Shown: positions 2,207 to 22,298 of the stretch, in pieces | Position numbering within the stretch: position 1 is the stretch's first letter | Layout of the letters: the number at the start of each line of letters is the position of its first letter | Origin: a virus | Virus record (IMG/VR): IMGVR_UViG_3300049478_000005 | Location: 1-27,191 of that record | Strand: one strand, 5' to 3' | DNA: 27,191 nucleotides | Notes under the pieces: generated by a model | Database searches by the model: none | Told to the model about the DNA's origin: nothing | Seen by the model: the letters and a program-made list of their open reading frames with translations, nothing else | Program-made: the position numbers and the translations under genes

Positions 2207-2803
2207 ATGGAAAAATCATATCGGGCAAAAAGGCATGATGTTATTCGGGAAAAACAGAGAGGAAATAGTAACGAAGTACACCATCCAGTAGAAAAGAAAC
2301 AGCAGATAAGATTAATTCTTAACGGAAAGAAAAGCCTAAAGATTTTAGAATTGTTTGCAGGGCAGGGCAACCTTACAGAAGTGTATAAGGATTATGGAAT
2401 GGTTGAATGCCACGATAAGAAAATAAATTCAAAAGACAGTTACCGGGAGTTTCACAGGCTGATAGCAGATAAGAAAAAATATGATGTTATCGACCTTGAC
2501 CCTTATGGTTTCCCCAACCGTTTCTTCCCGGATATTTTTTTATTAATTGATGATTTATTTATTACTATGCCAAAGCCTTATGTGAATATTTTGAATAGGA
2601 TTACAAGACAACATTTGACTTGTTATTATGGCGAATACAATCCCGGATTAGAAACGATAAAAGAACGAATAAAATTATATGGATTGTGCCATTGGAGAGA
2701 TATCAATTTTCTTGATATTACAGACCTTGGCAGGCTGTGGAGAATGGCAATCCGGGTTAATAAAGTCAAAGCAACCATTTATACAAACACAAATAATAGA
2801 TAG
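2207..2803 (+). CDS. SAM-dependent methyltransferase with Trm1-like DPYG motif
   Basis: This 198-residue protein contains a class I SAM-binding motif LELFAGQGNLTEVY (47-60) and a catalytic-region motif DLDPYG (96-101). The DPYG form, with a following F-P, resembles tRNA guanine-26 dimethyltransferases (Trm1) more than the DPPY of DNA adenine methylases. The protein is about half the length of Trm1 and lacks its C-terminal domain. The first 40 residues are basic and may bind nucleic acid. It starts 3 bases after the ParB-methyltransferase stop, so the two are probably translated together. The substrate (tRNA, other RNA or DNA) is unknown. The fold assignment is secure from motifs; the Trm1 comparison is inference. 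Confidence 0.7.
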   Translation: MEKSYRAKRHDVIREKQRGNSNEVHHPVEKKQQIRLILNGKKSLKILELFAGQGNLTEVYKDYGMVECHDKKINSKDSYREFHRLIADKKKYDVIDLDPYGFPNRFFPDIFLLIDDLFITMPKPYVNILNRITRQHLTCYYGEYNPGLETIKERIKLYGLCHWRDINFLDITDLGRLWRMAIRVNKVKATIYTNTNNR

Positions 2804-2813
2804 GGTGATGTTT

Positions 2814-3311
2814 ATGGCAGGCAGGGGCGCAAGCGAAAAAATAGATAGAAAAACAATAGACGAAATTGTTCTGATGGTTAAGATGGGGAACTACCTCGAA
2901 ACAGCAGCAGCCTATGCCGGAATTCATAAAGCAACCTTACATAGATGGCTTAAGAGGGGTAGAGAAGAAATAGAACGTATTAACAATTCGAGCAACAAAG
3001 CCAGTAAAATCCGAAAGAGCGAAGAGCTGTACGTTGATTTATGCGACTCAGTAGAAAAGTCTCTGGCAGAAGCTGAAATAAGGGATGTGCAGATAATATA
3101 CAATGCCTGCAAAGCAGACTGGAAAGCATCAGCATGGAGATTGGAAAGAAAGTACCCGGAACGATGGGGGCATAAAGAACAGCATGAAATTACCGGGAAA
3201 GATGGTGGAGCTGTAGAAGTTGAGATGGCAAGGAATAAGCTCATAAAAAAACTTACCGACATGAGCGATTGTGAACCGAAAGAGGACACAAAAGGCGATG
3301 ATGCAACATGA
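2814..3311 (+). CDS. terS: Terminase small subunit
   Basis: This 165-residue protein has an N-terminal helix-turn-helix: residues 14-50 contain MVKMGNYLETAAAYAGIH followed by KATLHRWLKRG. The central region is helical and the segment ERKYPERWGHKEQHEITGKD is typical of small terminase subunits of Gram-positive phages. These form a ring that recognises phage DNA and recruits the large subunit. The start ATG 2814 is chosen from AGGGTG at 2802-2807; ATG 2808 is an alternative. A longer in-frame reading back to 2679 would run inside the preceding methyltransferase gene and is not credible. The last four bases overlap the large subunit start (ATGA). Confidence 0.85.
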   Translation: MAGRGASEKIDRKTIDEIVLMVKMGNYLETAAAYAGIHKATLHRWLKRGREEIERINNSSNKASKIRKSEELYVDLCDSVEKSLAEAEIRDVQIIYNACKADWKASAWRLERKYPERWGHKEQHEITGKDGGAVEVEMARNKLIKKLTDMSDCEPKEDTKGDDAT

Positions 3312-4630
3312 GTATAGTCACACTCAAAAAAGAGCTTAAAAAAAGACCTAAAAACGAAATTATAAGAGCAGTTAGTGAATTGAGTTATGAAGAAATAGTA
3401 AGTATTCTTTATGATTGGGATTTCTGGGCGAGATATAACCAGCTCCAGCCTACCGGTAATTGGATTACCTGGATGATCCTGGCTGGAAGAGGATGGGGAA
3501 AAACTAGAACAGGAGCTGAGTGGGTCAGATATAGAGTGGAGAAAGAGGGCGCAAGAAGAGTCGCACTTGTAGCACCTACAGCAGCCGATGCGAGAGATGT
3601 AATGATAGAGGGGGAGTCCGGCTTACTAAATATATTCCCAGAGAATGAGAAGCCAATATACGAACCATCAAAGCGCAGGATTACATTCCACAACGGAGCA
3701 ATAGCCACAGCATACTCAGCAGATGAACCAGAGCGTCTCCGAGGTCCTAATCATGACAGTGCGTGGTGTGATGAGCTTTGTTCTTGGAGATATCCTGCAG
3801 CTTACGATATGCTAATGTTCGGGCTAAGACTTGGAGAACCAAAGGCAATCATAACAACGACACCAAAACCAACAAAGCTATTAAATGAGATTATTTCTAA
3901 CAAAAGTACAGTAATTACAAGGGGAACTACATACGATAATAGAGAGAATTTGGCAACAGCTTTCTTTGATAGAATCGTAACTAAATACGAGGGTACAAGG
4001 CTAGGAAGACAGGAGCTAAATGCAGAGATACTAGAAGACACGCAGGGCGCATTATGGACTAGAAAAACCATAGACGATAATAGAGTGTTTGAGCTTCCAT
4101 CATTGCAGCGAATTGTTGTGGGGATTGACCCGGCAGCAACAGCAAATGAAAACTCCAACGAAACAGGAATTATAGTCGGGGGGATTGGACTGGATGGGCA
4201 TGGTTATGTGATAGATGACATAAGCATCAAAGGGTCACCAGCAGAATGGGCAACCAATGCGATTAAGGCATACCACAACTGGAGAGCAGATAAAGTAGTG
4301 GCAGAGAACAACAACGGTGGTGACATGGTCAAATTTACTCTTAATACCGTAGATAAAACAGTCCCGGTCAGATTAGTTCATGCAGCCAGAGGGAAAGCAA
4401 CCAGAGCCGAACCCATCAGCTCATTATATGAGCAAGGGAAAATTCATCATGTCGGGTGTTTGGGAACGCTAGAAGACCAAATGACAACATGGATACCGGG
4501 GCAAGGTGAAAGCCCCGACAGAATCGATGCGCTTGTCTGGACAATGTGGGAGCTAATGATTGATGGCAGCAAGATAGCCAAAAAAGTAAAACCCGGAAGT
4601 ATATCGTCAACTTCATCATGGAACATATAA
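3308..4630 (+). CDS. terL: Terminase large subunit (packaging ATPase-nuclease)
   Basis: This 440-residue motor protein has a Walker A motif AGRGWGKT (59-66), a Walker B region SAWCDE (151-156) and a coupling segment ITTTPKP (182-188). The C-terminal RNase H-like nuclease shows its acidic residues in VGIDPAA (D274), VVAENN (E333) and ESPDRIDALV (D404/D407). The AGRGWGKTRTGAEWVR context is the form found in terminases related to gene-transfer-agent and HK97-like packaging proteins. It translocates DNA into the prohead through the portal and cuts it. The gene overlaps terS by ATGA and is followed after 15 bases by the portal gene. All key residues are present, so it looks functional. Confidence 0.95.
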   Translation: MSIVTLKKELKKRPKNEIIRAVSELSYEEIVSILYDWDFWARYNQLQPTGNWITWMILAGRGWGKTRTGAEWVRYRVEKEGARRVALVAPTAADARDVMIEGESGLLNIFPENEKPIYEPSKRRITFHNGAIATAYSADEPERLRGPNHDSAWCDELCSWRYPAAYDMLMFGLRLGEPKAIITTTPKPTKLLNEIISNKSTVITRGTTYDNRENLATAFFDRIVTKYEGTRLGRQELNAEILEDTQGALWTRKTIDDNRVFELPSLQRIVVGIDPAATANENSNETGIIVGGIGLDGHGYVIDDISIKGSPAEWATNAIKAYHNWRADKVVAENNNGGDMVKFTLNTVDKTVPVRLVHAARGKATRAEPISSLYEQGKIHHVGCLGTLEDQMTTWIPGQGESPDRIDALVWTMWELMIDGSKIAKKVKPGSISSTSSWNI

Positions 4631-4645
4631 AGAGAGGTGAATAGA

Positions 4646-5938
4646 GTGCCACAGAACATAAAGTTATCACTAGCAACTAACGAATTAGGTAGAACTGGTC
4701 TGGAAGAGTTTGGTGGGTTCATATACGAAGAATTTCTACCACAGCTCCAAGGGACAAAAGGCATTAAAATTTATCGAGAGATGAGTGATAATGACCCGGT
4801 CATTGGTGCGATTCTTTTTGCCATAGAAATGCTTATTCGTCAAGTTGATTGGAGAGTTGAACCAGCAGGAACATCGAAGGAAGAAGTTGATATGGCAGAC
4901 TTCCTAGAATCGAACATGAGCGATATGAGCGATACATGGCAGGATACCATATCAGAAGTATTGTCAATGCTGACATTCGGGTGGAGCTTCCATGAGATTG
5001 TTTATAAGCGCAGACAAGGGATGCAGAGTAACCCGGATAGTTCCTCAAAGTTTAATGATGGAAAGATAGGCTGGGCAAAGCTCCCGATACGTTCACAGGA
5101 ATCCCTGTGGGCATGGATATTTTCAGACAACGGTGACTTACTAGCGATGGAACAGCAGCCACCACCAGATTATAGAATTCGCAGCATACCGATGGAAAAA
5201 GCTCTTCTTTTCAGAACCAAAGTAAGAAAAGGTAACCCAGAGGGTAGGTCAATCCTTAGGAATGCATATAGACCTTGGTATTTTAAAAAGAACATAGAAA
5301 CGATTGAGGGCATAGGGCTGGAAAGGGACTTAGCCGGACTGCCAATAGCATGGGTTCCTCCAGAGCTGCTAGACCCAAACGCAAGTACCGAAGACAGAGC
5401 TGTTCTGTCTGAGATAAAAAAAATAGTTAGAAATGTACGCAGGGATGAACAAGAGGGGATTGTTTATCCCTTGGCTTATGATGAGAACAATAATAAGCTC
5501 TATGATTTAACTTTACTATCAACCGGGGGCAGAAGACAATTCGATACTGGCGCAATCGTTCAAAGATACGATTCGAGAATTGCCATGACTGTTCTAGCTG
5601 ATTTTATTTTATTAGGGCATGAAAATGTAGGGAGCTTTGCACTTAGCTCCGACAAGACAAATTTATTCAGTGTGGCTCTTGGAGCATGGATGGACAGCAT
5701 ATGTCAAGTGTTCAACAGAAAAGCAGTTCCTCAGTTATTCGCATTGAATGGATACAGTACGGAAAATCTTCCAAAGATTGTGCATGGAGATATCGAGAGC
5801 ATTCCATTGTCAGACCTTGGAGAATACATCAATAAATTATCTGGAGCAGGATACCCTCTGTTCCCGAATAAAGAACTCGAAGATGAACTTCTAAGAGTGG
5901 CAGGATTGCCAATAAATAGTGGGGGTGAAGAAGCATGA
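4646..5938 (+). CDS. Portal protein (DUF935-like)
   Basis: This 430-residue protein contains IYREMSDNDPVIGAILFAIE and the following VDWRVEPAG, a signature of the DUF935/Mu gp29-related portal family. It would form the dodecameric vertex ring through which DNA enters and the tail attaches. I chose GTG 4646 because AGAGAGGTGA (4631-4640) is correctly spaced; GTG 4637 lies inside that Shine-Dalgarno sequence. The C-terminus (GLPINSGGEEA) overlaps the next gene by ATGA. Position directly after terL and before the minor head gene is the standard order. Confidence 0.92.
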   Translation: MPQNIKLSLATNELGRTGLEEFGGFIYEEFLPQLQGTKGIKIYREMSDNDPVIGAILFAIEMLIRQVDWRVEPAGTSKEEVDMADFLESNMSDMSDTWQDTISEVLSMLTFGWSFHEIVYKRRQGMQSNPDSSSKFNDGKIGWAKLPIRSQESLWAWIFSDNGDLLAMEQQPPPDYRIRSIPMEKALLFRTKVRKGNPEGRSILRNAYRPWYFKKNIETIEGIGLERDLAGLPIAWVPPELLDPNASTEDRAVLSEIKKIVRNVRRDEQEGIVYPLAYDENNNKLYDLTLLSTGGRRQFDTGAIVQRYDSRIAMTVLADFILLGHENVGSFALSSDKTNLFSVALGAWMDSICQVFNRKAVPQLFALNGYSTENLPKIVHGDIESIPLSDLGEYINKLSGAGYPLFPNKELEDELLRVAGLPINSGGEEA

Positions 5939-6213
5939 AAGAAATATTGATGGAGAAATTAGAAAATTGTTTTGAAAGAGCTATCGCAACCGGGGCGAAA
6001 TATATCGCTGTGATGGTAGCCATGGACAGCTTACCAGAGCCGGAAATCATTATTAATCCGGCAGAAAACATACAAGGCAAGCTGGAGTATTACAAATACG
6101 CATACAATGACAATTTGACACTTAAAAGCTACGACAGGATTAGAATTGTAGGCTTCACATTCGGAAATTCAATAGATGAAATGAAAAAAGTTCTATACGA
6201 ATTTAGAAAATAA
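5935..6213 (+). CDS. Hypothetical protein, 92 residues
   Basis: I do not recognise this protein. It starts at ATG 5935 overlapping the portal stop, behind GGGGGTGA. The N-terminal half (MKEILMEKLENCFERAIATG) is probably helical, followed by a mixed alpha/beta region with YIAVMVAM as a likely buried strand. It is the first of three small genes lying between portal and minor head genes, a place where phages often carry accessory genes, so it may be an unstudied host-interaction protein. No signal peptide, membrane helix or metal site is visible. Confidence 0.7.
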   Translation: MKEILMEKLENCFERAIATGAKYIAVMVAMDSLPEPEIIINPAENIQGKLEYYKYAYNDNLTLKSYDRIRIVGFTFGNSIDEMKKVLYEFRK

Positions 6214-6227
6214 TAGGAGTTGTCTGT

Positions 6228-6509
6228 ATGATGGATTTTAGCGATGCTCTAAAAGAGCTTAAAAAGGGTGAGAAGTTATCCAGAAAAGGATGGAACGGAA
6301 AGAAAATGTTTGTCTATCTGGTTAAGGGAAGCTATATCGATGAAGACTTCTTACACAATGAAGCGAGAAAGCACAAGGTAGCAGAAAACGGATTTGCAAA
6401 TTTTAATTCACACATCGATATGAAGACAGCGAATGGCTCGGTTTGTGTTGGATGGCTTGCGAGCCAAACTGATTTATTAGCAGAAGACTGGATTATTATT
6501 GATGATTAA
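6228..6509 (+). CDS. tad2: Tad2-like (DUF2829) candidate anti-Thoeris protein
   Basis: This 93-residue protein matches the DUF2829 pattern from end to end: FSDALKELKKGEKLSRKGWN, then KKMFVYLV (residues about 25-32), then HIDMKTANGSVCVGWLASQT and a closing DLLAEDWII. The family includes Tad2, established in the anti-defence literature as a small sponge that binds the cyclic ADP-ribose-type signal of Thoeris and blocks abortive immunity. Not every DUF2829 protein has been tested, so the activity here is inferred. GGAG at 6216-6219 precedes ATG 6228 (ATG 6231 is also possible). Its position with the SpoIIID-like gene in a small cassette fits an accessory host-takeover function. Confidence 0.8.
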   Translation: MMDFSDALKELKKGEKLSRKGWNGKKMFVYLVKGSYIDEDFLHNEARKHKVAENGFANFNSHIDMKTANGSVCVGWLASQTDLLAEDWIIIDD

Positions 6510-6521
6510 GGAGAGGTCAGT

Positions 6522-6794
6522 ATGAAGAGAGATATTATTCATTCTAGGTCAGTAAAAGTAGCTGATTATATTATTAAAACAAACCATACAGTAAGAAAAG
6601 CAGCACAAGAATTCGGAGTAAGCAAGAGTACCATTTACAAGGATGTTACAGAAAGACTTATGGAGTCAGACCCAGCAAAGGCAGATATCATAGATGGCAT
6701 TCTGGCAGAACATAAAAACTCAAGACACATCCATGGCGGCATGGCAACAAAAGAAATGTATGAGAAGAAGAGGGCAGCAGCAATAATGGCATAA
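6522..6794 (+). CDS. SpoIIID-like sporulation transcription regulator
   Basis: This 90-residue protein is collinear with Bacillus SpoIIID (about 93 residues), the DNA-binding regulator of mother-cell genes. Shared blocks are VKVADYIIKTNHTVRKAAQE, the recognition region FGVSKSTIYKD (about 32-42), TERL, and the C-terminal basic arm HKNSRHIHGG followed by ATKEMYEKK. Both DNA-contacting elements, the helix-turn-helix and the basic tail, are present. Start ATG 6522 follows GGAGAGG. It lies 12 bases after the Tad2-like gene and immediately before the octamer array. A phage copy could steer or block host sporulation, or simply regulate phage genes. Family assignment is strong; the role is inference. 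Confidence 0.88.
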   Translation: MKRDIIHSRSVKVADYIIKTNHTVRKAAQEFGVSKSTIYKDVTERLMESDPAKADIIDGILAEHKNSRHIHGGMATKEMYEKKRAAAIMA

Positions 6795-6804
6795 ATTCCT
6801 AAGA

Positions 6805-6864
6805 AGAGTAAAAGAGTAAAAGAGTAAAAGAGTAAAAGAGTAAAAGAGTAAAAGAGTAAAAGAG
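6805..6864 (+). repeat. Seven perfect AGAGTAAA tandem repeats plus half a copy
   Basis: The octamer AGAGTAAA is repeated seven times without a mismatch (6805-6860), then AGAG leads into the GGGAGAA ribosome-binding site of the next gene. It fills almost the whole gap between the SpoIIID-like stop and the ATG at 6876. Every unit contains TAA, so no frame reads far through it. Perfect short repeats like this can change copy number by slippage. Confidence 0.95.
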
Positions 6865-6875
6865 GGAGAAATACT

Positions 6876-7268
6876 ATGTTTGATTACAAGCTTATATCAG
6901 ATGATGTGAAAGAAATGGGAATGACTCAGCTTGCACATAACCAATTTTTTATTAAAGATGGGGAAGCATGGTATAGAGATTTTGAGCGAGAAATATCATG
7001 CCGAAGCCTTGTCAGAGAGATAGGTGTGAAATTAGATATCTGGAAAAGCCCTAAAGAATATGGGTTAGATGCAGACAACGAAATGGTTGACGATGACATT
7101 CTGGATGAAACATTGGTGGACTCATTACAGTACGGAACGGAAGAACACATCGGGATATTAGCAATGTATTATACCGCTATGTGGGGAATGGCAGAGCTGC
7201 GAGAGTGGTATAAAGAAAAGCTGGCAACAGAAGTAAAAGAGGGTAAGGAAGATGGCATTCACATTTAA
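6876..7268 (+). CDS. Hypothetical protein, 130 residues, acidic
   Basis: I do not recognise this protein. It is acidic, with DNEMVDDDILDETLVDSL near residues 68-85, and ends in a helical, charged tail (ELREWYKEKLATEVKEGKED). ATG 6876 is preceded by GGGAGAA that directly abuts the octamer repeat. It overlaps the minor head gene by 17 bases, which suggests translational coupling and a role in head assembly, for example as a chaperone or partner of the minor head protein. That role is inferred from position only. Confidence 0.7.
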   Translation: MFDYKLISDDVKEMGMTQLAHNQFFIKDGEAWYRDFEREISCRSLVREIGVKLDIWKSPKEYGLDADNEMVDDDILDETLVDSLQYGTEEHIGILAMYYTAMWGMAELREWYKEKLATEVKEGKEDGIHI

Positions 7269-8187
7269 AAAAGCAAAAGTTCATGGTGTCCCTTACGGAA
7301 CTTGTGGGGTTAGAAAACAAGTCAGTACAGAACCCGGAGAAGAGCCAATATGGATACCAATACATAATGCTGCAGACAAAAACACCAAGCGCATGGCAGA
7401 CCAGATATCAAGGGGTACAGACCGAACAAAGAGCAACACAAACGAATCCGGGATGAGAGCCGGGGCTAGAGATTTTGATGCAAACAGAATGTATGCTTCT
7501 ATCCCATGGGATGAATACGACAATGCGCTTGATTTATCGAGTGAAACAATTCAGATAGCACTAAATGAAGCCGGAGCTGCTATGCTTCTTCATCTTCCAG
7601 CCGAATATAGAAAATTTACCTTTGACAGCACTACACCAAGAGCAATCAACTGGGCTAAAGACCAAGGGGCAAGGCTAGTCGTTGAAGTAGGGGATGAAAC
7701 CAAGGCAGCAATTAGAACTGAAATAGACAAGGCATTAAAAGAGGGTCTGGGAGCTGACAGGACAGCCAAAAACGTTATAAATCTAATCGGGCTTACCAGA
7801 AGACAGGCAGCAGCAGTAACAAACTATAGAAAACTATTAGAAGCATCCGGGGCAAGCGAAAAAGCTATAGAGAGAGATACTAAAAAATATTCTAAACGAT
7901 TACATGAATATAGAGCTGGCAACATAGCCAGAACCGAGCTAATGAACGCAGCCAATCAAGGTCATTTAGAGATGCTGCAACAAGGAGTAGAACAAAACCT
8001 CATACCACCAGATGCTTATAAGGTTTGGATTGTTACAAGTGATGATAGATTGTGTAAATATTGCAAACCCATGGATGAACAGAAGCAGCCACTTGATGGT
8101 CAATTTACATCGGAAAAAGGAAATGTTGACAGACCACCCTTGCATCCCATGTGTAGATGCGTAATGGGTGTCGAGTTTGAAAAATAG
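7252..8187 (+). CDS. Minor head protein (SPP1 gp7 / Mu F family)
   Basis: This 311-residue protein carries the typical phage minor-head architecture. A central helical region (about 140-250) contains GLTRRQAAAVTNYRKLL and YRAGNIARTELMNAANQGHL. A C-terminal cysteine/histidine cluster follows: DDRLCKYCKPMDEQ (C268, C271) and HPMCRCVMG (H298, C301, C303). Proteins of this family bind the portal, help head assembly and in some phages are ejected with the DNA. The N-terminal 100 residues are less conserved. The gene overlaps the preceding unknown gene, with GAGGG/AAGGA as ribosome-binding site. Confidence 0.9.
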   Translation: MAFTFKKAKVHGVPYGTCGVRKQVSTEPGEEPIWIPIHNAADKNTKRMADQISRGTDRTKSNTNESGMRAGARDFDANRMYASIPWDEYDNALDLSSETIQIALNEAGAAMLLHLPAEYRKFTFDSTTPRAINWAKDQGARLVVEVGDETKAAIRTEIDKALKEGLGADRTAKNVINLIGLTRRQAAAVTNYRKLLEASGASEKAIERDTKKYSKRLHEYRAGNIARTELMNAANQGHLEMLQQGVEQNLIPPDAYKVWIVTSDDRLCKYCKPMDEQKQPLDGQFTSEKGNVDRPPLHPMCRCVMGVEFEK

Positions 8188-10125: not shown

Positions 10126-13100
10126 GTGAGTATTAATAAAGCTGCATTTACAAGAGAGTACCTAGAAACAATCCTCGAAATTATAGAAGACTACCTATCA
10201 CCCGAAGTCTATCAAGATATTGTTAGAATGGCAATCCCGAAATCCGGGGGCAAGGCAAAGTCAAACAAATGGAGCAAAGAAACTTCACTCATAGAAAAAC
10301 TATCACTTGAAGAAATGCACCCGGACTTATTAAAGGATGTGCCAGACAAAGAGATAGTATCAGCATGGCATAGATTAAATCAATGGTATGGCGCAGCCAA
10401 AGACAAGAAAACAGCCATCGAAAACTTTGTTAATGCTGCTATCTGGGTAAGCGAAGAGATGAAAAAAAGAGGGTTTCAAATCGATGAAGAGAATGATTTA
10501 TACAAGACTGTTCAAGAATTTAAAACCACAAAAAAATACAATGTAGTGAAAAGATTTTATGACCTACCGAATGAAGTAGTGTGTGTTCGTGATTTCGTTT
10601 CCATTGTTGGGAGCGCAGCAAAAGAAAAGCCGAACCCGAATGACATAGATATTTTATTCAGAGCGAATGAGGACAACGGTAATTATTTAATTCAAAGCGA
10701 GAATGTATGGCTTCCAGTCAGAAATGTATTAGACCCGAACAAAGAAGAAGAACTTCACTTCATAGCGAACCCACAGGGAGCGCATGGGGACTATGTAAGC
10801 TGCTATGATTTGATTTTGAGAAAGAAGCCTGCATACAAGAGGGAAATTGTAAAGGCAGCATCCGAGATGCCAGACTGGGAGCAATATATCAAGAACGATG
10901 CTCCCATCGGCTCGATGTTCGACTTAGGAAGTGGTAATTCTAAGCCAGATGGGTTCATTGGGATAGATAAAAATAATTTTGATGGTGTTGATATTATCGC
11001 AGATTTAGACTATGGAATTCCTCTGCCGGATAATTGCGCTGCAGCTATCAGAGCAAACCACTTCATAGAGCATATGAGCGATACAGAACAGATACTAACG
11101 GACATTTTTAGAGTGTTAATGCCGGGGGGCATAGCCATTATTACAGTCCCCAGCATGGATAGCGAGGGAGCAGCAGCGCATCCCGGACATAAAAACTTCT
11201 TTAATCAGTCAAGTTTTGATTTCTGGACTAACCCGGAACTGACCGAAGACCGACCAGTCTATGAAAAAATGTGTGTTAATAAAAGAACTGAACCGACTGG
11301 ACTGTCGTATATCGATGCAGTATTAAGAAAACCCAGTGATGGTAGCAGTAAGAAAATAAAAAAGATTGCACCCGGTCAGACATTCATCCCACCGAAGCCA
11401 CAGATGGCAGGGACAACGGAAGCCTTTGAATTAAAAGATTTGTTCGAGTGGGCAAAAGATAGGTATCCGATTGATATAGAACCCAAGTGGAATGGCTTCC
11501 GTTCCGTAGTCAGCAAAAAAGGGGACAATGCTGAACTCTGGTTCGAGGGTCAAATGGGAAAAAACCAGCTTGATAAGCTCCCGGAATTAAAAGCAGCACT
11601 CGAAAAAATTACTGGTGATTTTGTGTTTGATGCAGATATCGGAATAGAGAAGAACGGAAAACGAGTATCCAGACCAGACTTAATGAAATTTAATGCAGAT
11701 AACCCGGTATTTGAAAAAGATGAAATTCCGATTCTGATGATATTTGATTTAATGTATAGGGACAAAGATATATCAGACTTGCCATTTGAAGAGCGCAGGA
11801 AGCTCACAGAGCGATTTTATAGGCAAGAGGTAGGGGATAAATCAATTATTAAATTATCGCCAGCCAAAACGACAAATAGCGACACCGAAACAAGGGCAGC
11901 AGCAAGGTGGGCTTTTGATTTTGATATGAGCGAGGGGCTGGTAGCCAAAGACACCAAGAGTACATATGAGCAGGCTGGAACGGATGGCTGGTTTAAATTA
12001 AAAAAAGTCGCAGAGTTAAAAGTCATTGTTCTAGATAAGCAGGAAACAAAGACAAAAGGTGTTTATAACTACTATGGTGGGCTTCTTCCATCGCAGGAAG
12101 AGAACTGGACTAATACAAAGGAACTGAACGGAAAGGAATATGTAGACCTTGGGAAAACGTTCTCTACAAAAGTGATAGCAGAACCGGGTGACATTATCAC
12201 CGTAAGTATCCTAGAACTCATACCAGACACAGCAAAGAACGAACTAGCATGGCTAGGCGCAAGGGTTCAAGATATCGATGATACCAGAAAAGAACCTTAT
12301 ACCACAGCCCAAGCTCAGACGATAGCAGCAAGCAGGCAAGTGATACAGAAAGATGTTAATAGATTTGTACCCAGCGCAGGAAATAAAAATTCGAAAGTTG
12401 CTTTTATAGGCGCAAGCCCGAATATTATTGATGCTGCCAGAGGTGAAGCATTTACCGGGTTATGTGGTCAATTATTATCCGAAATGTTTTTACAACCACT
12501 TGGGATAACAAAGCAAGACATTTTTATATCTCATGTTGTGCCGGAGCTATTAACAAACGAAGCTGGTCATGCAAGAGAACCAATCACTAAAGAAATAGAT
12601 GAATGGAAAGACTGGATAGAAAAAGAGATAGCAGCAGCGAACCCGGATGTTATTGTTGCACTCGGCAGGATTGCCAAAGATGCGCTCGGAAACAAAGCTG
12701 ATTTTGTTATGCCCCACCCGGATGCGATTAATCGGTTCGGTGACAAGGGTGAAGTATCAAGGAAGATAAAGCAAGTTAAAAAGCAGATGAACAAAAAATT
12801 AATAGATGGAATTTTAAAAGCAGCGCAGCCGGATGAAGAGGGTGGAACAAGGGAAGCAGACTCCGAAGTATTCTGGAAGAACAACTGGCAAGATATGTAT
12901 CCAAAAGATGGCAATGGTCGGTACGTTTATCAGCACCACTGGAGAGGACTAACAGAAGATGAAACGAAACTACCAGAAAGCGATTTATTAAAGACAGACC
13001 ATTCCTTACATGGTGATTTAAGGTTTGAAAAAGATGGTGGGCTGTGGGGCTTTTCAGTCTTCCTCGGAAAGACAGAGGATAACAGGGATGGCGATAGACT

Positions 13101-13893
13101 TATAAACCTACCTCCAGAGGATAATCTGCAGGGAGCTTTTAAACTACAGCAGCCCAGTGAATGGTTAGAGGTTGGAGTTGAGAAACCATATATAAGCGAA
13201 CCGGGTGGAGTGGGAAGTACAGCAAATGCATGGGCTGAATTCTTTGCACAAGATACCGGGACATATGAAATAGGAGTATGGAGAGAGCATATGTTTGAAG
13301 TGTTCCTTCATGGGGATAAATTAAAGGGCAGATTTATTATTGAGTATGCGCCAATTGGTGGAGAGAGAATATGGCTGATTGATAAGCCGAAAGACCAGAC
13401 ACCATATGCCGAAAAAAATAAACTTGAGGATGTAATATCAGAGCTAAAAAGTAAAGGTCAGAAATGGCTTATATGGGCGAAACCCGGACAGAAACCTCAG
13501 AAAATAAACGTACAATCCCAGAAAATAGAAAAAGAATATTTTGCATATATAATTAAAGCAGATGATGAACAGCAGATAGCAACCGGGATTGTTTTAGAAC
13601 CGAACACCATAGATGCCCATGGTGATGAAATAAGCGCAGATGAGATAGAAAAAGCAGCTCATTTCTTCATGAAAAATTCGAGAACCATCGGTGACAGCCA
13701 CAAAAAGAAAGCTCCTGCAGATTTGATTGAAAGTTATATAGCACCAGATGACTTTACACTAAATGGTCAGAAAATCAAAAAGGGAACGTGGATGATATCA
13801 GTTAAAATTCTCGATGATAAATTATGGAAACTCGTAAAAGCAGGATTTTATACTGGCTTTTCAGTTGGTGGTTTTGGCATTAGAGAGGGGTGA
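10126..13893 (+). CDS. Giant DNA-repair polyprotein fused to XkdF-type prohead protease
   Basis: This single 1255-residue frame starts at GTG 10126 after GGGGGTGG. Domains in order follow. Residues 65-130: helical region of unknown role. 135-235: nucleotidyltransferase-like, with G162-S163 and D173/D175. 258-390: class I methyltransferase (FDLGSG 265-270, IGID 278-281, PGGIAIITVPS). 437-630: ATP-dependent ligase adenylation domain with KWNGFR (K454 nucleophile), IFDLMYRDKDISDLPFEERR, and EGLVAKDT with WFKLKK; then an OB fold to about 720. 755-890: uracil-DNA-glycosylase superfamily, with IVALGRIAKDAL and an HPD in place of HPS. 930-1095: LigD-type 3'-phosphoesterase, with HHWRG and SLHGDLRFE, then LHGDKLKGRF. 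1135-1255: XkdF/S78-like protease (H1192, S1246 in GFSVGG). Domain identities rest on motifs. The glycosylase lacks the iron-sulfur cysteines of family 4, and the second phosphoesterase histidine is not evident. Confidence 0.88.
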   Translation: MSINKAAFTREYLETILEIIEDYLSPEVYQDIVRMAIPKSGGKAKSNKWSKETSLIEKLSLEEMHPDLLKDVPDKEIVSAWHRLNQWYGAAKDKKTAIENFVNAAIWVSEEMKKRGFQIDEENDLYKTVQEFKTTKKYNVVKRFYDLPNEVVCVRDFVSIVGSAAKEKPNPNDIDILFRANEDNGNYLIQSENVWLPVRNVLDPNKEEELHFIANPQGAHGDYVSCYDLILRKKPAYKREIVKAASEMPDWEQYIKNDAPIGSMFDLGSGNSKPDGFIGIDKNNFDGVDIIADLDYGIPLPDNCAAAIRANHFIEHMSDTEQILTDIFRVLMPGGIAIITVPSMDSEGAAAHPGHKNFFNQSSFDFWTNPELTEDRPVYEKMCVNKRTEPTGLSYIDAVLRKPSDGSSKKIKKIAPGQTFIPPKPQMAGTTEAFELKDLFEWAKDRYPIDIEPKWNGFRSVVSKKGDNAELWFEGQMGKNQLDKLPELKAALEKITGDFVFDADIGIEKNGKRVSRPDLMKFNADNPVFEKDEIPILMIFDLMYRDKDISDLPFEERRKLTERFYRQEVGDKSIIKLSPAKTTNSDTETRAAARWAFDFDMSEGLVAKDTKSTYEQAGTDGWFKLKKVAELKVIVLDKQETKTKGVYNYYGGLLPSQEENWTNTKELNGKEYVDLGKTFSTKVIAEPGDIITVSILELIPDTAKNELAWLGARVQDIDDTRKEPYTTAQAQTIAASRQVIQKDVNRFVPSAGNKNSKVAFIGASPNIIDAARGEAFTGLCGQLLSEMFLQPLGITKQDIFISHVVPELLTNEAGHAREPITKEIDEWKDWIEKEIAAANPDVIVALGRIAKDALGNKADFVMPHPDAINRFGDKGEVSRKIKQVKKQMNKKLIDGILKAAQPDEEGGTREADSEVFWKNNWQDMYPKDGNGRYVYQHHWRGLTEDETKLPESDLLKTDHSLHGDLRFEKDGGLWGFSVFLGKTEDNRDGDRLINLPPEDNLQGAFKLQQPSEWLEVGVEKPYISEPGGVGSTANAWAEFFAQDTGTYEIGVWREHMFEVFLHGDKLKGRFIIEYAPIGGERIWLIDKPKDQTPYAEKNKLEDVISELKSKGQKWLIWAKPGQKPQKINVQSQKIEKEYFAYIIKADDEQQIATGIVLEPNTIDAHGDEISADEIEKAAHFFMKNSRTIGDSHKKKAPADLIESYIAPDDFTLNGQKIKKGTWMISVKILDDKLWKLVKAGFYTGFSVGGFGIREG

Positions 13894-13897
13894 GTTG

Positions 13898-14752
13898 ATG
13901 TCAGAGCTTAAAGACCTAGAAGCAATTGAAGTATCACTTGTATCTAAGGCAGCAAATAAAAAAAAGTTTGTAATTTTAAAATCTGAAAGTAAAGGAGTGA
14001 ACCAAATGGATGAAATTTTAAAAGCAATAGTTGAATCGGAGCTTGAGAATGAAAAGGAAGTAGATAAGATACTCAAGCAGAAAAAGGTATCCGAAAAGGC
14101 TGTTATAGCAGTTAAGGGAGCTTTGAAAGTCCTCAATGCATTTAAGGATGAACTTCCAAAGGATGTTATGAATACACTTGCTGAACTTGCTGGGTATGGA
14201 TATGAAGCACCAGAGGGTATGGCAAAGCAGAAAGCTGCAGGGTGTGGAGATTACAAACCAGTGAAGAAAGCAGATGGCAGCATCGACCTTACTGGTGTGC
14301 CGGAGGAAGTGAAACCACTTCTTACAGCACTCTGGAAAGAGAATGAAGACATGGCAAAGAGAGCAAACGTCTTAGAAGCCATGATACAGAAACAGGAAGA
14401 TGATAAGCTCACAGATAAATATGTGCAAGTTGCAAAGCAGTTCAAGAACTTTTCTCTTAATCCGGCAGAACTTGGCGCAGTATTAAAAGATATTGCAAAG
14501 AAGACTCCCGAATCAGTTGCAAAGATTGAGGAAGTACTTAAGTCAGCAGATGCAGCTATTTCCAATAGTGGATTATTCAAAGAGATTGGAAGCGCAGCAG
14601 GCAATTCTCCTAAGGCTATGGATAAGATAGAGCAAAAAGCAGTTGAGATTATGAAGACCGAGAAAATCACAAAGGCAGAAGCTATCACCAAGGCATTAGA
14701 GAGTAACCCGGAGCTTTACAATGAATATCTAAAAGAGGGAGGTAATTTCTAA
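13898..14752 (+). CDS. Capsid scaffold protein with detached protease tail
   Basis: This 284-residue, charged, mostly helical protein has long coiled-coil-like stretches (ENEKEVDKILKQKKVSEKAV; KENEDMAKRANVLEAMIQKQ) and ends NPELYNEYLKEGGNF. That composition and its place between protease and major capsid genes fit a scaffold. The first 30 residues (LKDLEAIEVSLVSKAANKKK and following F) are the segment that, in XkdF-family proteases, normally follows the catalytic domain in the same polypeptide. Here they are in the +1 frame after the protease stop. ATG 13898 follows AGGGGTGA. A second start at 14006 would give a 248-residue scaffold without this tail. Confidence 0.8.
   Translation: MSELKDLEAIEVSLVSKAANKKKFVILKSESKGVNQMDEILKAIVESELENEKEVDKILKQKKVSEKAVIAVKGALKVLNAFKDELPKDVMNTLAELAGYGYEAPEGMAKQKAAGCGDYKPVKKADGSIDLTGVPEEVKPLLTALWKENEDMAKRANVLEAMIQKQEDDKLTDKYVQVAKQFKNFSLNPAELGAVLKDIAKKTPESVAKIEEVLKSADAAISNSGLFKEIGSAAGNSPKAMDKIEQKAVEIMKTEKITKAEAITKALESNPELYNEYLKEGGNF
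13991..14008 (+). promoter_or_regulatory. Internal translation start for a nested scaffold
   Basis: AAAGGAGTGAACCAAATG lies in frame inside the scaffold gene. The ATG 14006 codes for residue 37, exactly where the protease-tail segment ends and the scaffold (MDEILKAIVESELENEKEV) begins. The major capsid gene uses an almost identical signal, AAAGGAGTGAAACCAAATG at 15492-15510. This points to two products from one frame, as with phage lambda C and Nu3. Confidence 0.7.
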
Positions 14753-15477
14753 TGGCACATGAAATAATTGTTCAAAATACTTCCTTAGTTGCAGCAGCCG
14801 ATTATTCAGCAAAGCAATATTATGCTGTTAAAGTGAATGCTTCTGGTCTTGCTGAATTATGTGGAGCTGGCGAAAACGCACTCGGTATATTGCAGGATAA
14901 GCCAGAGAGTGGTGATGTTGGCTGTGTTATGGTGCTTGGTGAGAGCAAGGCTATCTATGGCGCAACAGTGGCAGCAGGGGCGAACCTTATGACCGATGCT
15001 TCTGGTCGGTTAATCACAGCAACAGGCACAAACCCTGTTATTGCAGTTGCAAAAGTGGGTGGAGCTGTAAATGAAATTCATACCGTATATCTGGTAACAA
15101 GAACTTCATCTGGCGCAAACACCAAGATGATTGTGAGCATTCCTGTTCCATTGGCTGGGCTTGTTACTGGCGATATTGTAACGACATATACACCGGGATT
15201 TGCTGGAACAATTGTCAAGATCTCGGCAGTTGTTACCGTAGCTACTACGGATGTGGATGCCGATGCAACCATCAACATGGAGATTGGCACAACCAATCTT
15301 ACTGGTGGTGTGGTTACTCTGGCAGACAGCACCGTAACACCGAGGGGCGCAGTCATTGATGGCACAGCCATTACTGCAGCAAATGTATTTACAGCAGTTG
15401 ACACGATTAGTGTTGAAGCTGTCGTTACTAACGCTTTTACGGATGGTGAAATTACATTACTTATCGTTATTCAGTAA
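14752..15477 (+). CDS. Capsid decoration protein (DUF2190-like) with extra beta domain
   Basis: Residues 1-115 follow the DUF2190 decoration-protein pattern: a beta-rich fold with AKQYYAVKVNASGLAELCGA, GENALGILQDKPESGDVG and GANLMTDASGRLITATG. Such proteins cement the capsid lattice. Residues 120-241 form a second, separate domain of short strands rich in T, V and A (for example VTVATTDVDADATINMEIGT), perhaps a surface-exposed fibre or adhesion head. The ATG overlaps the scaffold stop (TAATG) behind GGGAGG, so translation is coupled. Only the first domain has a family assignment. Confidence 0.8.
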   Translation: MAHEIIVQNTSLVAAADYSAKQYYAVKVNASGLAELCGAGENALGILQDKPESGDVGCVMVLGESKAIYGATVAAGANLMTDASGRLITATGTNPVIAVAKVGGAVNEIHTVYLVTRTSSGANTKMIVSIPVPLAGLVTGDIVTTYTPGFAGTIVKISAVVTVATTDVDADATINMEIGTTNLTGGVVTLADSTVTPRGAVIDGTAITAANVFTAVDTISVEAVVTNAFTDGEITLLIVIQ

Positions 15478-15507: not shown

Positions 15508-16470
15508 ATGCCGAACCCAACCAGAGGTGACGTTCATGTTAATATGCCATTGACCCAAATTTCAATAGCATATATACAGAACCAATTAAATTTTATTGCT
15601 GATAAGGTGTTCCCAAACATCCCAGTCAACAAACAGTCAGATAGATACTTCACATATACCAAGGATGACTGGCATAGGAGCGAAGCACAGAAAAGAGCAC
15701 CCGGAACAGAGAGTGCTGGTGGTGGTTTTAGAATCGACAATACACCTACCTATTTCGCTGATGTTTATTCTATCCATAAGGATGTAGATGACCAGATAAG
15801 AGCTAACGCAGATGCACCCATCAACATGGATAGGGATGCAACGGAATATGTTACCCAACAGCTCTTAATCAAACGAGAAGAAACATGGGCAGCTAACTAC
15901 TTCACTACTGGTGTTTGGACTACCCAGAAGCAGGGAACTACACACTTCACAAAGTGGGATAGTGCATCTTCTACACCGATTGAAGATATTACTACCCAAG
16001 GTATCACAATCGCTCAGTTAACAGGCTACAAGCCGAATGTCTTAGTACTAAGCCCATTCGTATTCAACACATTAAAGAGCAATGCTGATGTATTAGACCG
16101 TATTAAGTACACTCAAAAGGGTGTCGTTACTACCGATATTTTGGCTAACCTCTTCGAAGTTGATAGAGTTGCGGTTGCTATGGGTGTTAAGAATACTGCA
16201 GCAGAGGGCGCAACCGCTACCAATGACTTCATCATAAGCAACAAAGCAGCTTTACTATGCTATGCTAACCCAAGACCGTCTATCTTGACACCAAGCGCAG
16301 GGTACACATTTAGCTGGACTGGTTTAGTTGGAGCTGGTGTGGCTGGAACGAGAATCAAACGGTTCAGAATGGAAGAACTTGAATCAGATAGAGTTGAGGG
16401 GGAGTCTGCATTCGACCTTAAACTTGTATCGGCAGATTTGGGTTGCTACTTCTACGATGCAATCACTTGA
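15508..16470 (+). CDS. Major capsid protein (HK97-fold type)
   Basis: This 320-residue protein has the elongated N-arm and P-domain layout of HK97-like coat proteins: LTQISIAYIQNQLNFIADKV, the FPNIPV turn, the DDWHRSEAQKRAPGTESAGG loop, KREETWAANYF, and YKPNVLVLSPFVFNTLKSNA. It ends ADLGCYFYDAIT. It is preceded by protease, scaffold and decoration genes and has a very strong initiation signal (AAAAGGAGTGA, ATG 15508). A terminator follows at 16502. The start shows no obvious long delta domain, which agrees with a separate scaffold gene. Confidence 0.92.
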   Translation: MPNPTRGDVHVNMPLTQISIAYIQNQLNFIADKVFPNIPVNKQSDRYFTYTKDDWHRSEAQKRAPGTESAGGGFRIDNTPTYFADVYSIHKDVDDQIRANADAPINMDRDATEYVTQQLLIKREETWAANYFTTGVWTTQKQGTTHFTKWDSASSTPIEDITTQGITIAQLTGYKPNVLVLSPFVFNTLKSNADVLDRIKYTQKGVVTTDILANLFEVDRVAVAMGVKNTAAEGATATNDFIISNKAALLCYANPRPSILTPSAGYTFSWTGLVGAGVAGTRIKRFRMEELESDRVEGESAFDLKLVSADLGCYFYDAIT

Positions 16471-20222: not shown

Positions 20223-22298
20223 GTGGCAGTTGTAGCACAGTTGATGGTCAATATTGGGGCAGATACATCCAAATTTGACAGTGGCATGAAAGATGTAAGC
20301 CAGAACCTTAGTAGCGCAGGAAAACACGCTCTGAGTTTTGGGGACATTTTAAAAGCCAATGTTTTATCGGATGCGATTGTTGGTGGGTTTAGTGCGCTAG
20401 GTGGTGCGATAGGCGATGCAGCAGGAAAACTAAAAGACTTCGCAATGCAGGGAATACAAACAGCTAGTGATTTAGGAGAGGTCGAAAATGTTGTTGTAAC
20501 AACCTTTGGAAAAGAGGGTTCTAAAGTAATAGATGACTTCGCTAAAACAGCATCGACATCATTTGGATTAAGTGAATTATCTGCTAAACAATTTACCGGG
20601 ACAATGGGTGCGATGCTTAAGTCTACCGGGTTAAGTGGAAAACAAGTTGAAGAAATGTCAACTTCGATAACTGGTCTTTCTGGCGATTTTGCATCGTTTT
20701 ATAATCTCCCTGCAGAAGAAGCATTCGCTAAAATCAGAGCTGGTATATCTGGTGAAACAGAACCACTAAAACAGCTTGGTATAAATATGAGTGCTGCAAA
20801 CCTTGAAACGTATGCTTTGACACAAGGATTAGGCAAATCATATAAAGAAATGTCAGAAGCTGAAAAGGTAGCACTAAGATACAATTATTTAATGTCGGCT
20901 ACAGCAGATGCACAAGGTGACTTTGCAAAAACTTCCGATAGCTACGCAAACCAACAGAGAATAATGCAATTGAATATGGAAAACCTATCGGCAACCATCG
21001 GAAGCCAGCTTCTACCGATGGCGAATGGATTAACAACAGCTTTTAATAATTTATTAACTGGCGCATCAAGTGCCGAAGAATTCGGGGCTACAGTTGGTGG
21101 TATCCTTACGGATTTGGCAAATTTAATCATGGAAAATATTCCAATGATAATTGATATCGGTATAGAAATTATTAATGCCCTTTTAAACGGTATCATGAAA
21201 AGTCTTCCAGACCTTATCGGGGCAGCAGGGACTATTTTTTCTAGTCTTGGAAATATGCTCATGCAAAATTTACCGTTACTAATTGATATGGGGATACAAA
21301 TACTCAATGCTCTCATAAATGGAATTATTCAAAATTTACCAATGATTGTAACATCGGCACTGTCAATTATAAATCAGCTCGTGACAGCTTTACTAACTAT
21401 GCTCCCACAGATAATTCTTATGGGGGTTCAATTGCTTATACAGTTAGCACTTGGTATAGCGCAGGCATTACCAACTTTAATTCCAGCCATAATTAATGCT
21501 GTTTTATTAATGCAGGAAACACTTATAGATAATATTGATTTATTAATTGATGCAGCAATTCAGCTCATGATTGGATTAGCGAATGGATTGATTGCAGCAC
21601 TGCCACAGATAATAGCAAAAGCACCGATAATTATAAGCAAATTAGTAACTGCAATCATTAATAATCTGCCTAAAATAATAGCTGCAGCATGGCAAATCAT
21701 AAAATCATTAGCAGGGGCAATCATATCTAATTTACCTCAAATAATGTCATCGGCTGGACAGATTATAGGCACAGTAGTTCGTGGTATTGTGGGTGGAATT
21801 GGTTCAATAAATAAGGCAATGACTGATATCAGAAATAACATTCTTTCCTCTATTGGTGGATGGGCTGGTAAGCTATGGGATAAAGCAAAAAGTATCGGTT
21901 CTAGTTTATGGAAAGGCTTTAAAAAAGGGATTGGAATGGGTTCTCCATCCTTGATTGAAAGAGCTTTCATGGCTATCGAAGCCCAAGGATATGAAACGGT
22001 AAGTAATTTAAATAAATTGTCACCAAGACTAAAGGCTGAAATGTTTGATATAACAGAGCCTAGTTCACCATTTACAATGGCAGGCACAGCAGCAGCAAGG
22101 GTAGTAAAAGCTCCAGTATTAACACCAGAAGAAAAAGCACTCAGAACAGATAATTTAAAAACGCAGAGCAATGGACTAACTATTAATATTTATGGGTTGA
22201 CAGTAAGAGAGGATGCAGATATCGAGAAAATATCTCAAAGATTATACTATTTGCAGCAATCTAACATGAGGGGAGTAGGGGGTGAGCCTAGTGTTTAG
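20223..22298 (+). CDS. Tail tape measure protein
   Basis: This 691-residue protein starts at GTG 20223 after GGAGGGGGTGA. Residues 1-80 and the ASDLGEVENVVVTTFGKEGS segment are typical of tape measure N-terminal regions, and helical charged stretches follow. Residues about 300-540 are a long hydrophobic, repetitive section with units such as NLPLLIDMGIQILNALINGI, a likely membrane-active or channel part. GMGSPSLIERAFMAIEAQGY near 575 is a common tape-measure motif. Length sets tail length: using the rule of thumb of about 0.15 nm per residue, roughly 100 nm. The last 8 bases overlap the Dit gene. Confidence 0.92.
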   Translation: MAVVAQLMVNIGADTSKFDSGMKDVSQNLSSAGKHALSFGDILKANVLSDAIVGGFSALGGAIGDAAGKLKDFAMQGIQTASDLGEVENVVVTTFGKEGSKVIDDFAKTASTSFGLSELSAKQFTGTMGAMLKSTGLSGKQVEEMSTSITGLSGDFASFYNLPAEEAFAKIRAGISGETEPLKQLGINMSAANLETYALTQGLGKSYKEMSEAEKVALRYNYLMSATADAQGDFAKTSDSYANQQRIMQLNMENLSATIGSQLLPMANGLTTAFNNLLTGASSAEEFGATVGGILTDLANLIMENIPMIIDIGIEIINALLNGIMKSLPDLIGAAGTIFSSLGNMLMQNLPLLIDMGIQILNALINGIIQNLPMIVTSALSIINQLVTALLTMLPQIILMGVQLLIQLALGIAQALPTLIPAIINAVLLMQETLIDNIDLLIDAAIQLMIGLANGLIAALPQIIAKAPIIISKLVTAIINNLPKIIAAAWQIIKSLAGAIISNLPQIMSSAGQIIGTVVRGIVGGIGSINKAMTDIRNNILSSIGGWAGKLWDKAKSIGSSLWKGFKKGIGMGSPSLIERAFMAIEAQGYETVSNLNKLSPRLKAEMFDITEPSSPFTMAGTAAARVVKAPVLTPEEKALRTDNLKTQSNGLTINIYGLTVREDADIEKISQRLYYLQQSNMRGVGGEPSV

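Follow-up and report, generated by a model that had tools for sequence, protein, structure and literature searches.

A giant gene in a viral contig may encode a polyprotein whose own protease takes it into the prohead and there divides it into enzymes, which then pass into the cell along with the genome. The chance that this reading is correct is judged to be somewhat better than even. The gene lies in the IMG/VR record IMGVR_UViG_3300049478_000005 (positions 1 to 27,191), and this whole stretch of 27,191 nt is called the window. Its product (Table 1) joins a probable nucleotidyltransferase, a methyltransferase, an ATP-dependent ligase with its OB fold, a domain of the uracil-DNA glycosylase (UDG) superfamily, a domain with the fold of the LigD 3'-phosphoesterase, and a C-terminal XkdF prohead protease. 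A sequence-only reading of the DNA had described this frame as a DNA-repair toolkit that is fused to the protease and could be released by proteolysis. Numbers preceded by L are labels of related loci that were compared with the window.

The long frame is found intact on a second contig, and its sequence is conserved. It runs for 1255 residues without a stop, as first read, and an equivalent 1255-aa frame with 88% identity is encoded on a separate contig (L002). The dN/dS ratio between the two genes is 0.11 overall, 0.02-0.19 across all domains (the lowest value comes from a near-saturated dS), and 0.13-0.39 in the linkers; by this comparison the fusion gene is under purifying selection. The independent contig, the relatives, and the dN/dS ratios rule out an assembly artefact. 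A programmed frameshift into the next gene is also ruled out, as the next ATG (13898) lies after the stop codon and L004 has a TGATG overlap. Internal initiation would yield a stand-alone XkdF, and no Shine-Dalgarno-like start is present near any domain boundary. Fold and profile evidence excludes an ordinary XkdF with a chance ligase-like match.

The C-terminal domain is an intact-looking prohead protease, judging from its profile match and conserved residues. The XkdF match in Pfam covers residues 1142-1251 (E 4e-31, 108 bits versus a cut-off of 24). H1192 and S1246, which had been singled out in the sequence-only reading, stand at those positions and are invariant in 12 XkdF sequences, ordinary ones included. 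The window and nine relatives, all partial records, have one XkdF each (10/10), always within a large fusion frame.

A short pattern with a lysine is concentrated at the joints between domains. All five linkers of the window protein (J1 to J5) lie in or beside low-confidence segments of the AF2 models, which were made from the window protein and its relatives, and all contain hydrophobic-x-Lys. The pattern [VIL]xK[AS] came from inspection of the linkers themselves and was afterwards tested on 96 linkers of 24 relatives, where it occurs 53 times, 8.7x the 6.1 given by within-linker shuffles. When arginine replaced the lysine the ratio was 1.8x, with glutamate 0.25x, and with aspartate, asparagine, or glutamine 1.0x; two controls with the wrong spacing gave 2.3x and 4.2x. 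Junction types J1 to J4 are each above expectation. As in viral polyproteins, a consensus is found at the domain boundaries, here in a statistical sense and for a consensus that is itself putative.

The same pattern is enriched 5- to 6-fold in the candidate scaffold regions after XkdF, both in these and in ordinary phages. The scaffold candidate of the window, in the frame read from 13865, has 7 sites versus 1.8 by shuffles. Scaffold candidates after giant XkdF genes, most of which had no part in defining the pattern, have 106 sites versus 22.2 expected, while the arginine and glutamate versions are at 0.7-0.8x and the other open reading frames of these loci have 70 versus 58.6 (1.2x). In unrelated annotated phages, XkdF and the proteins that follow it contain 72 sites versus 11.6 expected. 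A further sample of 47 proteins contains 238 versus 49.5, with 156 versus 117 (1.33x) in other open reading frames. No enrichment was found in P22 gp8, T7 gp9, or lambda Nu3/C. The pattern also resembles the HK97 cleavage site, which we take to lie between K103 and S104; the fetched HK97 sequence reads, by translation, T-F-N-K103/S104 at this place. Because the pattern is enriched in the linkers and in XkdF-phage scaffolds and not in those of P22, T7, and lambda, and because the HK97 site is alike, we infer that XkdF proteases cut after the lysine of hydrophobic-x-Lys-(Ala/Ser). That linkers and scaffold both have the pattern is strong, if indirect, support for the proposed release by proteolysis, and the cutting itself stays putative.

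The ligase has its expected motifs, and the UDG and phosphoesterase domains have the folds with altered active sites. The ligase matches its Pfam family over the cut-off (residues 449-626, E 2e-14), and the model of residues 413-735, OB fold included, can be superposed on DNA ligases (human LIG1, Z 25.3, ~300 residues, 2.9 A). K454 is where it had been placed, in KWNGFR, and with E603-G604 and K624/K626 (motifs I, IV, and V) it is near-invariant in relatives, so that the ligase motifs are intact as aligned. The UDG superfamily match is also over the cut-off (residues 749-889, E 7e-19), and the predicted structure resembles Thermus UDG (1ui1, Z 19.5, 146 residues, 2.0 A). The HP motif is intact. 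Where solved family-4 enzymes show GEGP and CNVV, the window domain shows GASP and SHVV, and it has a single cysteine; the family-4 signature (Fe-S cysteines, motif-1 Glu, and motif-2 Asn) is absent from it. Most relatives retain TN in motif 2.

The phosphoesterase was identified mainly from its predicted structure. The LigD_N match in the window is below the Pfam threshold (residues 960-1072, E 0.038). Residues 930-1090 match the archaeal LigD phosphoesterase 3p43 (E 9.5e-8, TM 0.76, Z 13.1, 123 residues, 2.4 A) and also the phosphoesterase of PaeLigD, and for a relative encoded by a Bacillota genome the LigD_N match is over the cut-off (E 5.5e-9); these matches settle the identity of the domain. 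The LigD catalytic set presumably consists of His42, His48, Asp50, Arg52, His84, and Tyr88. Four residues of this site are conserved (H938, H962, D964, and R966, with H938 paired to His42 by hand), and equivalents of His84 and Tyr88 are absent from the aligned window domain. Since recognised catalytic residues are missing from both the UDG and the phosphoesterase of the window, the repair toolkit is only partly supported: it holds for the motifs of the ligase. The ligase, UDG-superfamily, LigD-type phosphoesterase, and methyltransferase assignments are borne out by Pfam or predicted structures.

The N-terminal part is less clear. Residues 150-235 are a probable Pol-beta-type nucleotidyltransferase, which is the least certain domain assignment in the fusion. 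The residues G-S-x9-D-x-D...D are invariant or near-invariant among 16 relatives, in agreement with the earlier suggestion of such a domain. On the other side, the profile matches are weak (DUF6932, E 5.5e-4 in the window; NTP_transf_2, E 4.9e-4 in one relative), AF2 confidence is low over the region, and it has no match among solved structures. The helical region that precedes it weakly matches the Pyr_excise profile (T4 endonuclease V) in three relatives, with a best E of 0.002. In the full window protein the methyltransferase matches Methyltransf_11 over the cut-off (residues 292-339, E 1e-5).

Related fusions share a core and exchange other modules at fixed places. Relatives of 750-1660 residues occupy the same head-gene slot in about 30 more viral contigs and in two genomes of Bacillota. 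They were sampled as ten close relatives and 33 loci from a query with the phosphoesterase and XkdF; the two sets overlap, and some loci are partial. The core of nucleotidyltransferase, ligase, OB fold, phosphoesterase, and XkdF is found in most of them, so the search for other XkdF proteins with N-terminal enzymes that the sequence-only reading had called for yielded many. The methyltransferase is missing from L005, L008, and L009, and the UDG from L008, L009, L029-L032, and L036. L041 is without the ligase, and in L029 only ligase, phosphoesterase, and XkdF are visible. A Dam module is present in L006 and L032, a metallo-beta-lactamase-fold domain occupies the methyltransferase slot of L017:3821-8038, and a 2H phosphoesterase (LigT-like) is at the N-terminus of L043:3518-8179. 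The anti-Pycsar protein Apyc1 also has a metallo-beta-lactamase fold. In L094:2-2110 the anti-CBASS protein Acb1 (E 2.8e-33, both HxT motifs) precedes the OB fold, phosphoesterase, and XkdF, in the place expected for the ligase catalytic domain. The label of repair is therefore too narrow for a family that carries Dam, metallo-beta-lactamase, 2H phosphoesterase, ChaB, and Acb1 domains.

Long N-terminal extensions are common among XkdF proteins. In a wider XkdF-only sample of 77 loci, which is biased toward window-like XkdF, 32 have more than 300 residues before XkdF, with UDG, ligase, ChaB, Acb1, or nothing recognised in the extension. BFVD contains a 700-aa match named after a zeta-toxin domain. 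XkdF frames occur in 19 of 398 Bacillota genomes; two are giant, and 17 of the 19 are 78-501 aa long. A tblastn search for the phosphoesterase domain found it in none of the isolated phages of the collection. The human faecal contig MT839701 was rejected as a relative because its ligase match is a plain ligase frame. Several other features of the relatives may be recorded. An unannotated module of ~90 residues (ERHSxREVASESG...DGWGERYYLVE) with the linker motif on its flanks lies between UDG and phosphoesterase in L006 and L017 and is also present in L041. In L011 and L019 the fusion is divided among at least two frames, through either errors in the contigs or real splits. DUF3721 is found near the N-terminus of the XkdF fusions of L109, L111, L112, and L115, two of which carry UDG-like domains. 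The prophage-like region of L079 has a second giant at L079:8461-11838 (-), in which MuF is fused to ~800 further residues without a Pfam match.

The fusion gene sits in a siphovirus-like head module. The gene order is terminases, portal, MuF-like protein, fusion, Lys-rich scaffold candidate, small head protein, major head protein, and tail genes. The place between portal/MuF and scaffold/major head protein is the usual one for XkdF, and ordinary XkdF genes occupy it in Lactococcus, Pseudomonas, Dulem, and Methanothermobacter viruses. The frame at 14752-15477 is named scaffolding by PHROG; it is Lys-poor and more like a decoration protein, and the Lys-rich frame before it is the better scaffold candidate. 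A SpoIIID-like sporulation regulator is encoded at 6522-6794, between the portal and MuF genes. Because of this protein and because the cellular copies of the fusion lie in Bacillota genomes, a bacterium of the Bacillota is the probable host. In phage records, XkdF proteases commonly carry the wrong label of DNA methyltransferase (phrog_1530; MN988558 QIG76977.1). Annotated methyltransferase-XkdF fusions are for this reason no precedent; the Rhizobium phage coding sequence is 212 aa long and is XkdF itself.

Table 1. Positions of the fusion, its domains and linkers, and neighbouring head genes in the window
Feature	Position	Strand	Basis
Upstream head module: terminase small and large subunits, portal, small open reading frames, MuF-like protein	2679..8187	+	head-gene context
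Giant XkdF fusion, 1255 aa, GTG start	10126..13893	+	open frame without stop; Pfam; relatives
N-terminal helical region, residues 66-145	10321..10560	+	AF2 helices
Probable Pol-beta-type nucleotidyltransferase, residues 150-235; G162-S163...D173-x-D175...D228	10573..10830	+	alignment and weak profiles
Linker J1 site I-V-K-A, residues 241-244	10846..10857	+	low-pLDDT segment 236-248
Class I SAM methyltransferase domain, residues 251-402, optional module	10876..11331	+	Pfam; missing from L005, L008, L009
Linker J2 site I-K-K-I, residues 411-414, weak motif form	11356..11367	+	low pLDDT 407-411
ATP-dependent ligase nucleotidyltransferase domain, residues 416-628, K454 in KWNGFR	11371..12009	+	Pfam, conservation, structure alignment
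Ligase OB-fold domain, residues 629-730	12010..12315	+	structural alignment to DNA ligases, spanning residues 366-735
Linker J3 site I-Q-K-D, residues 740-743, weak form; most relatives LQK[AS]	12343..12354	+	low pLDDT 734-743
UDG-superfamily domain, residues 758-890, optional module	12397..12795	+	Pfam, structure matches; motif-2 Asn to His, HP motif retained
Linker J4 site I-L-K-A, residues 896-899	12811..12822	+	low pLDDT 899-908 directly after
LigD-type 3'-phosphoesterase-fold domain, residues 916-1122; H938, H962, D964, R966	12871..13491	+	structure, conservation, relative's profile
Linker J5 site I-I-K-A, residues 1142-1145, at XkdF start	13549..13560	+	predicted first strand of protease
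XkdF (Peptidase_S78_2) prohead protease, residues 1146-1255, H1192 and S1246	13561..13893	+	Pfam and conservation
Lys-rich scaffold candidate	13898..14752	+	position and composition
Major head protein	15508..16470	+	phrog_1005 E 3e-90

The closest known concept is the polyvalent protein. Like the fusion, polyvalent proteins have many unrelated enzyme domains, are encoded near virion genes, and swap modules, and their authors liken them to polyproteins of eukaryotic viruses, which are released by peptidases embedded in them (Iyer et al. 2017, PMC5512222). The window protein agrees with this description in having several unrelated enzyme domains in one polypeptide beside late virion genes. In contrast to the fusion, which embeds a head-maturation protease with its probable site at each joint, polyvalent proteins use other peptidases (e.g. 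zincin-like MPTase), and XkdF is unmentioned in that paper. The hub domains MPTase, ArdC, ART, SNF2, DdrB-ParB, and MuF are not among the Pfam matches of the window protein, and MuF is a separate gene. A jumbo-phage survey names XkdF as a head protease only (PMC7824862). Ordinary XkdF and HK97-type prohead proteases have the protease domain in common with the fusion, take the same gene slot, and probably cut at the same pattern; most XkdF frames are shorter, as the Bacillota genomes show. In phage SPN3US the prohead protease gp245 cuts head-packaged proteins at a short motif, as is proposed for the fusion, but its substrates are separate proteins with propeptides, the motif is AxE, and there is no polyprotein (PMC10052503).

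The core itself resembles two other proteins. AJP62006.1 of the archaeal virus ANMV-1 (KP703175), an 866-aa protein annotated as an ATP-dependent DNA ligase, has collinear nucleotidyltransferase, ligase-OB, and phosphoesterase regions (BLASTP 2e-4, 4e-8, and 1e-9, respectively; phosphoesterase profile 5e-10). Unlike the window protein it shows no XkdF, and no UDG or methyltransferase was noted. Bacterial LigD (phosphoesterase-ligase-polymerase) also has the ligase with OB fold and the 3'-phosphoesterase in one polypeptide. The domain order differs, and the fusion has the probable Pol-beta-type nucleotidyltransferase instead of the AEP polymerase, for which Pfam gave no match in the window protein. 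No Ku partner, as a LigD-like system may have, was found in ten partial records.

The arrangement suggests how the fusion may work. XkdF would bring the precursor into the prohead, where the active protease would cut both scaffold and precursor after lysine at their shared pattern. The nucleotidyltransferase, methyltransferase, ligase, UDG-like protein, and phosphoesterase would be freed inside the head. By the precedent of head ejection proteins they could then stay beside the DNA and accompany the genome into the next host. Cleavage, packaging, and ejection are all inferred here. Head proteases act inside the prohead, that of HK97 in ~60 copies (PMC12749128), and in SPN3US the head proteins that the prohead protease cuts are packaged, with ejection probable (PMC10052503). 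The core would most likely serve the entering genome by processing its nicks or ends and sealing them, because ligase-OB, phosphoesterase, and probable nucleotidyltransferase resemble a LigD without the polymerase. The exchangeable modules (Dam, UDG, metallo-beta-lactamase, 2H, and Acb1) would suit protection of the genome from host defences or damage.

Several observations weigh against this scheme. The pattern also occurs inside domains (83 versus 51.5 expected, 1.6x), and the window tape-measure protein (20223-22298) has 7 sites versus 1.9 by shuffles. The linkers of relatives share ancestry, and shuffle z-scores overstate their independence. Only three of the five window linkers have the full motif (IVKA, ILKA, and IIKA), IKKI and IQKD being weaker, and the J5 site, modelled as the first strand of XkdF, may be structural. 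Amphipathic helices could also cause the motif spacing; the arginine and glutamate controls argue against this. The UDG and the phosphoesterase of the window may have been altered or may no longer be active, and the UDG of L003 is decaying. The precursor of ~141 kDa would need to fit the prohead in several copies. ANMV-1 indicates that the core needs no protease.

Other readings of the fusion appear less probable than processing in the head. It is unlikely that XkdF releases itself in the cytoplasm soon after synthesis, so that the enzymes act during replication and the fusion does no more than tie their expression to head assembly. Replication or repair is the ordinary business of a ligase, a methyltransferase, and a glycosylase, and the core exists without XkdF in ANMV-1; however, the gene is in a late head-gene position, and the HK97-type protease works inside the prohead (PMC12749128). 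Rather more doubtful is an uncut polyvalent protein that is packaged and ejected whole and whose linker motif has another origin, such as flexible Lys-rich joints. Polyvalent proteins do combine unrelated enzyme domains near late genes, and the N4 virion RNA polymerase is packaged unprocessed (PMC5512222), yet the C-terminal domain here looks like an intact prohead protease, no other XkdF was found, and the linkers and scaffold both contain its likely site. Service at packaging, with nick sealing and uracil removal on incoming DNA in the prohead, or decayed domains kept as internal DNA-binding proteins, and no ejection, is improbable even though terminase, portal, and prohead genes adjoin the fusion and the UDG and phosphoesterase have lost some catalytic residues, since Acb1 of L094 and the Dam modules make more sense in the host cell.

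Processing and delivery from the head may extend beyond the window. The sequence-only reading knew of no system of this form, and no such XkdF fusion was found described in the open-licence literature; the window itself is not unique. New here are the enrichment of [VIL]-x-K-[AS] at linkers and scaffold and the proposed delivery, not previously described for XkdF. Tentatively, and with a probability a little short of even, XkdF-type proteases may widely serve as both cargo tag and processing enzyme: N-terminal enzymes for repair, methylation, or anti-CBASS activity, joined by hydrophobic-x-Lys-Ala/Ser, would form a polyprotein that is cut in the capsid and loads early-infection enzymes. If true, a DNA phage would have a polyprotein that the protease of its own capsid processes, and the route would be a general one for stocking phage heads with enzymes. 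The proposed cleavage consensus can be tested across a large family of proteases, and it supplies a sequence rule to find further head-delivered cargo, anti-defence proteins included. XkdF may also be a naturally occurring tag by which proteins could be loaded into phage capsids.

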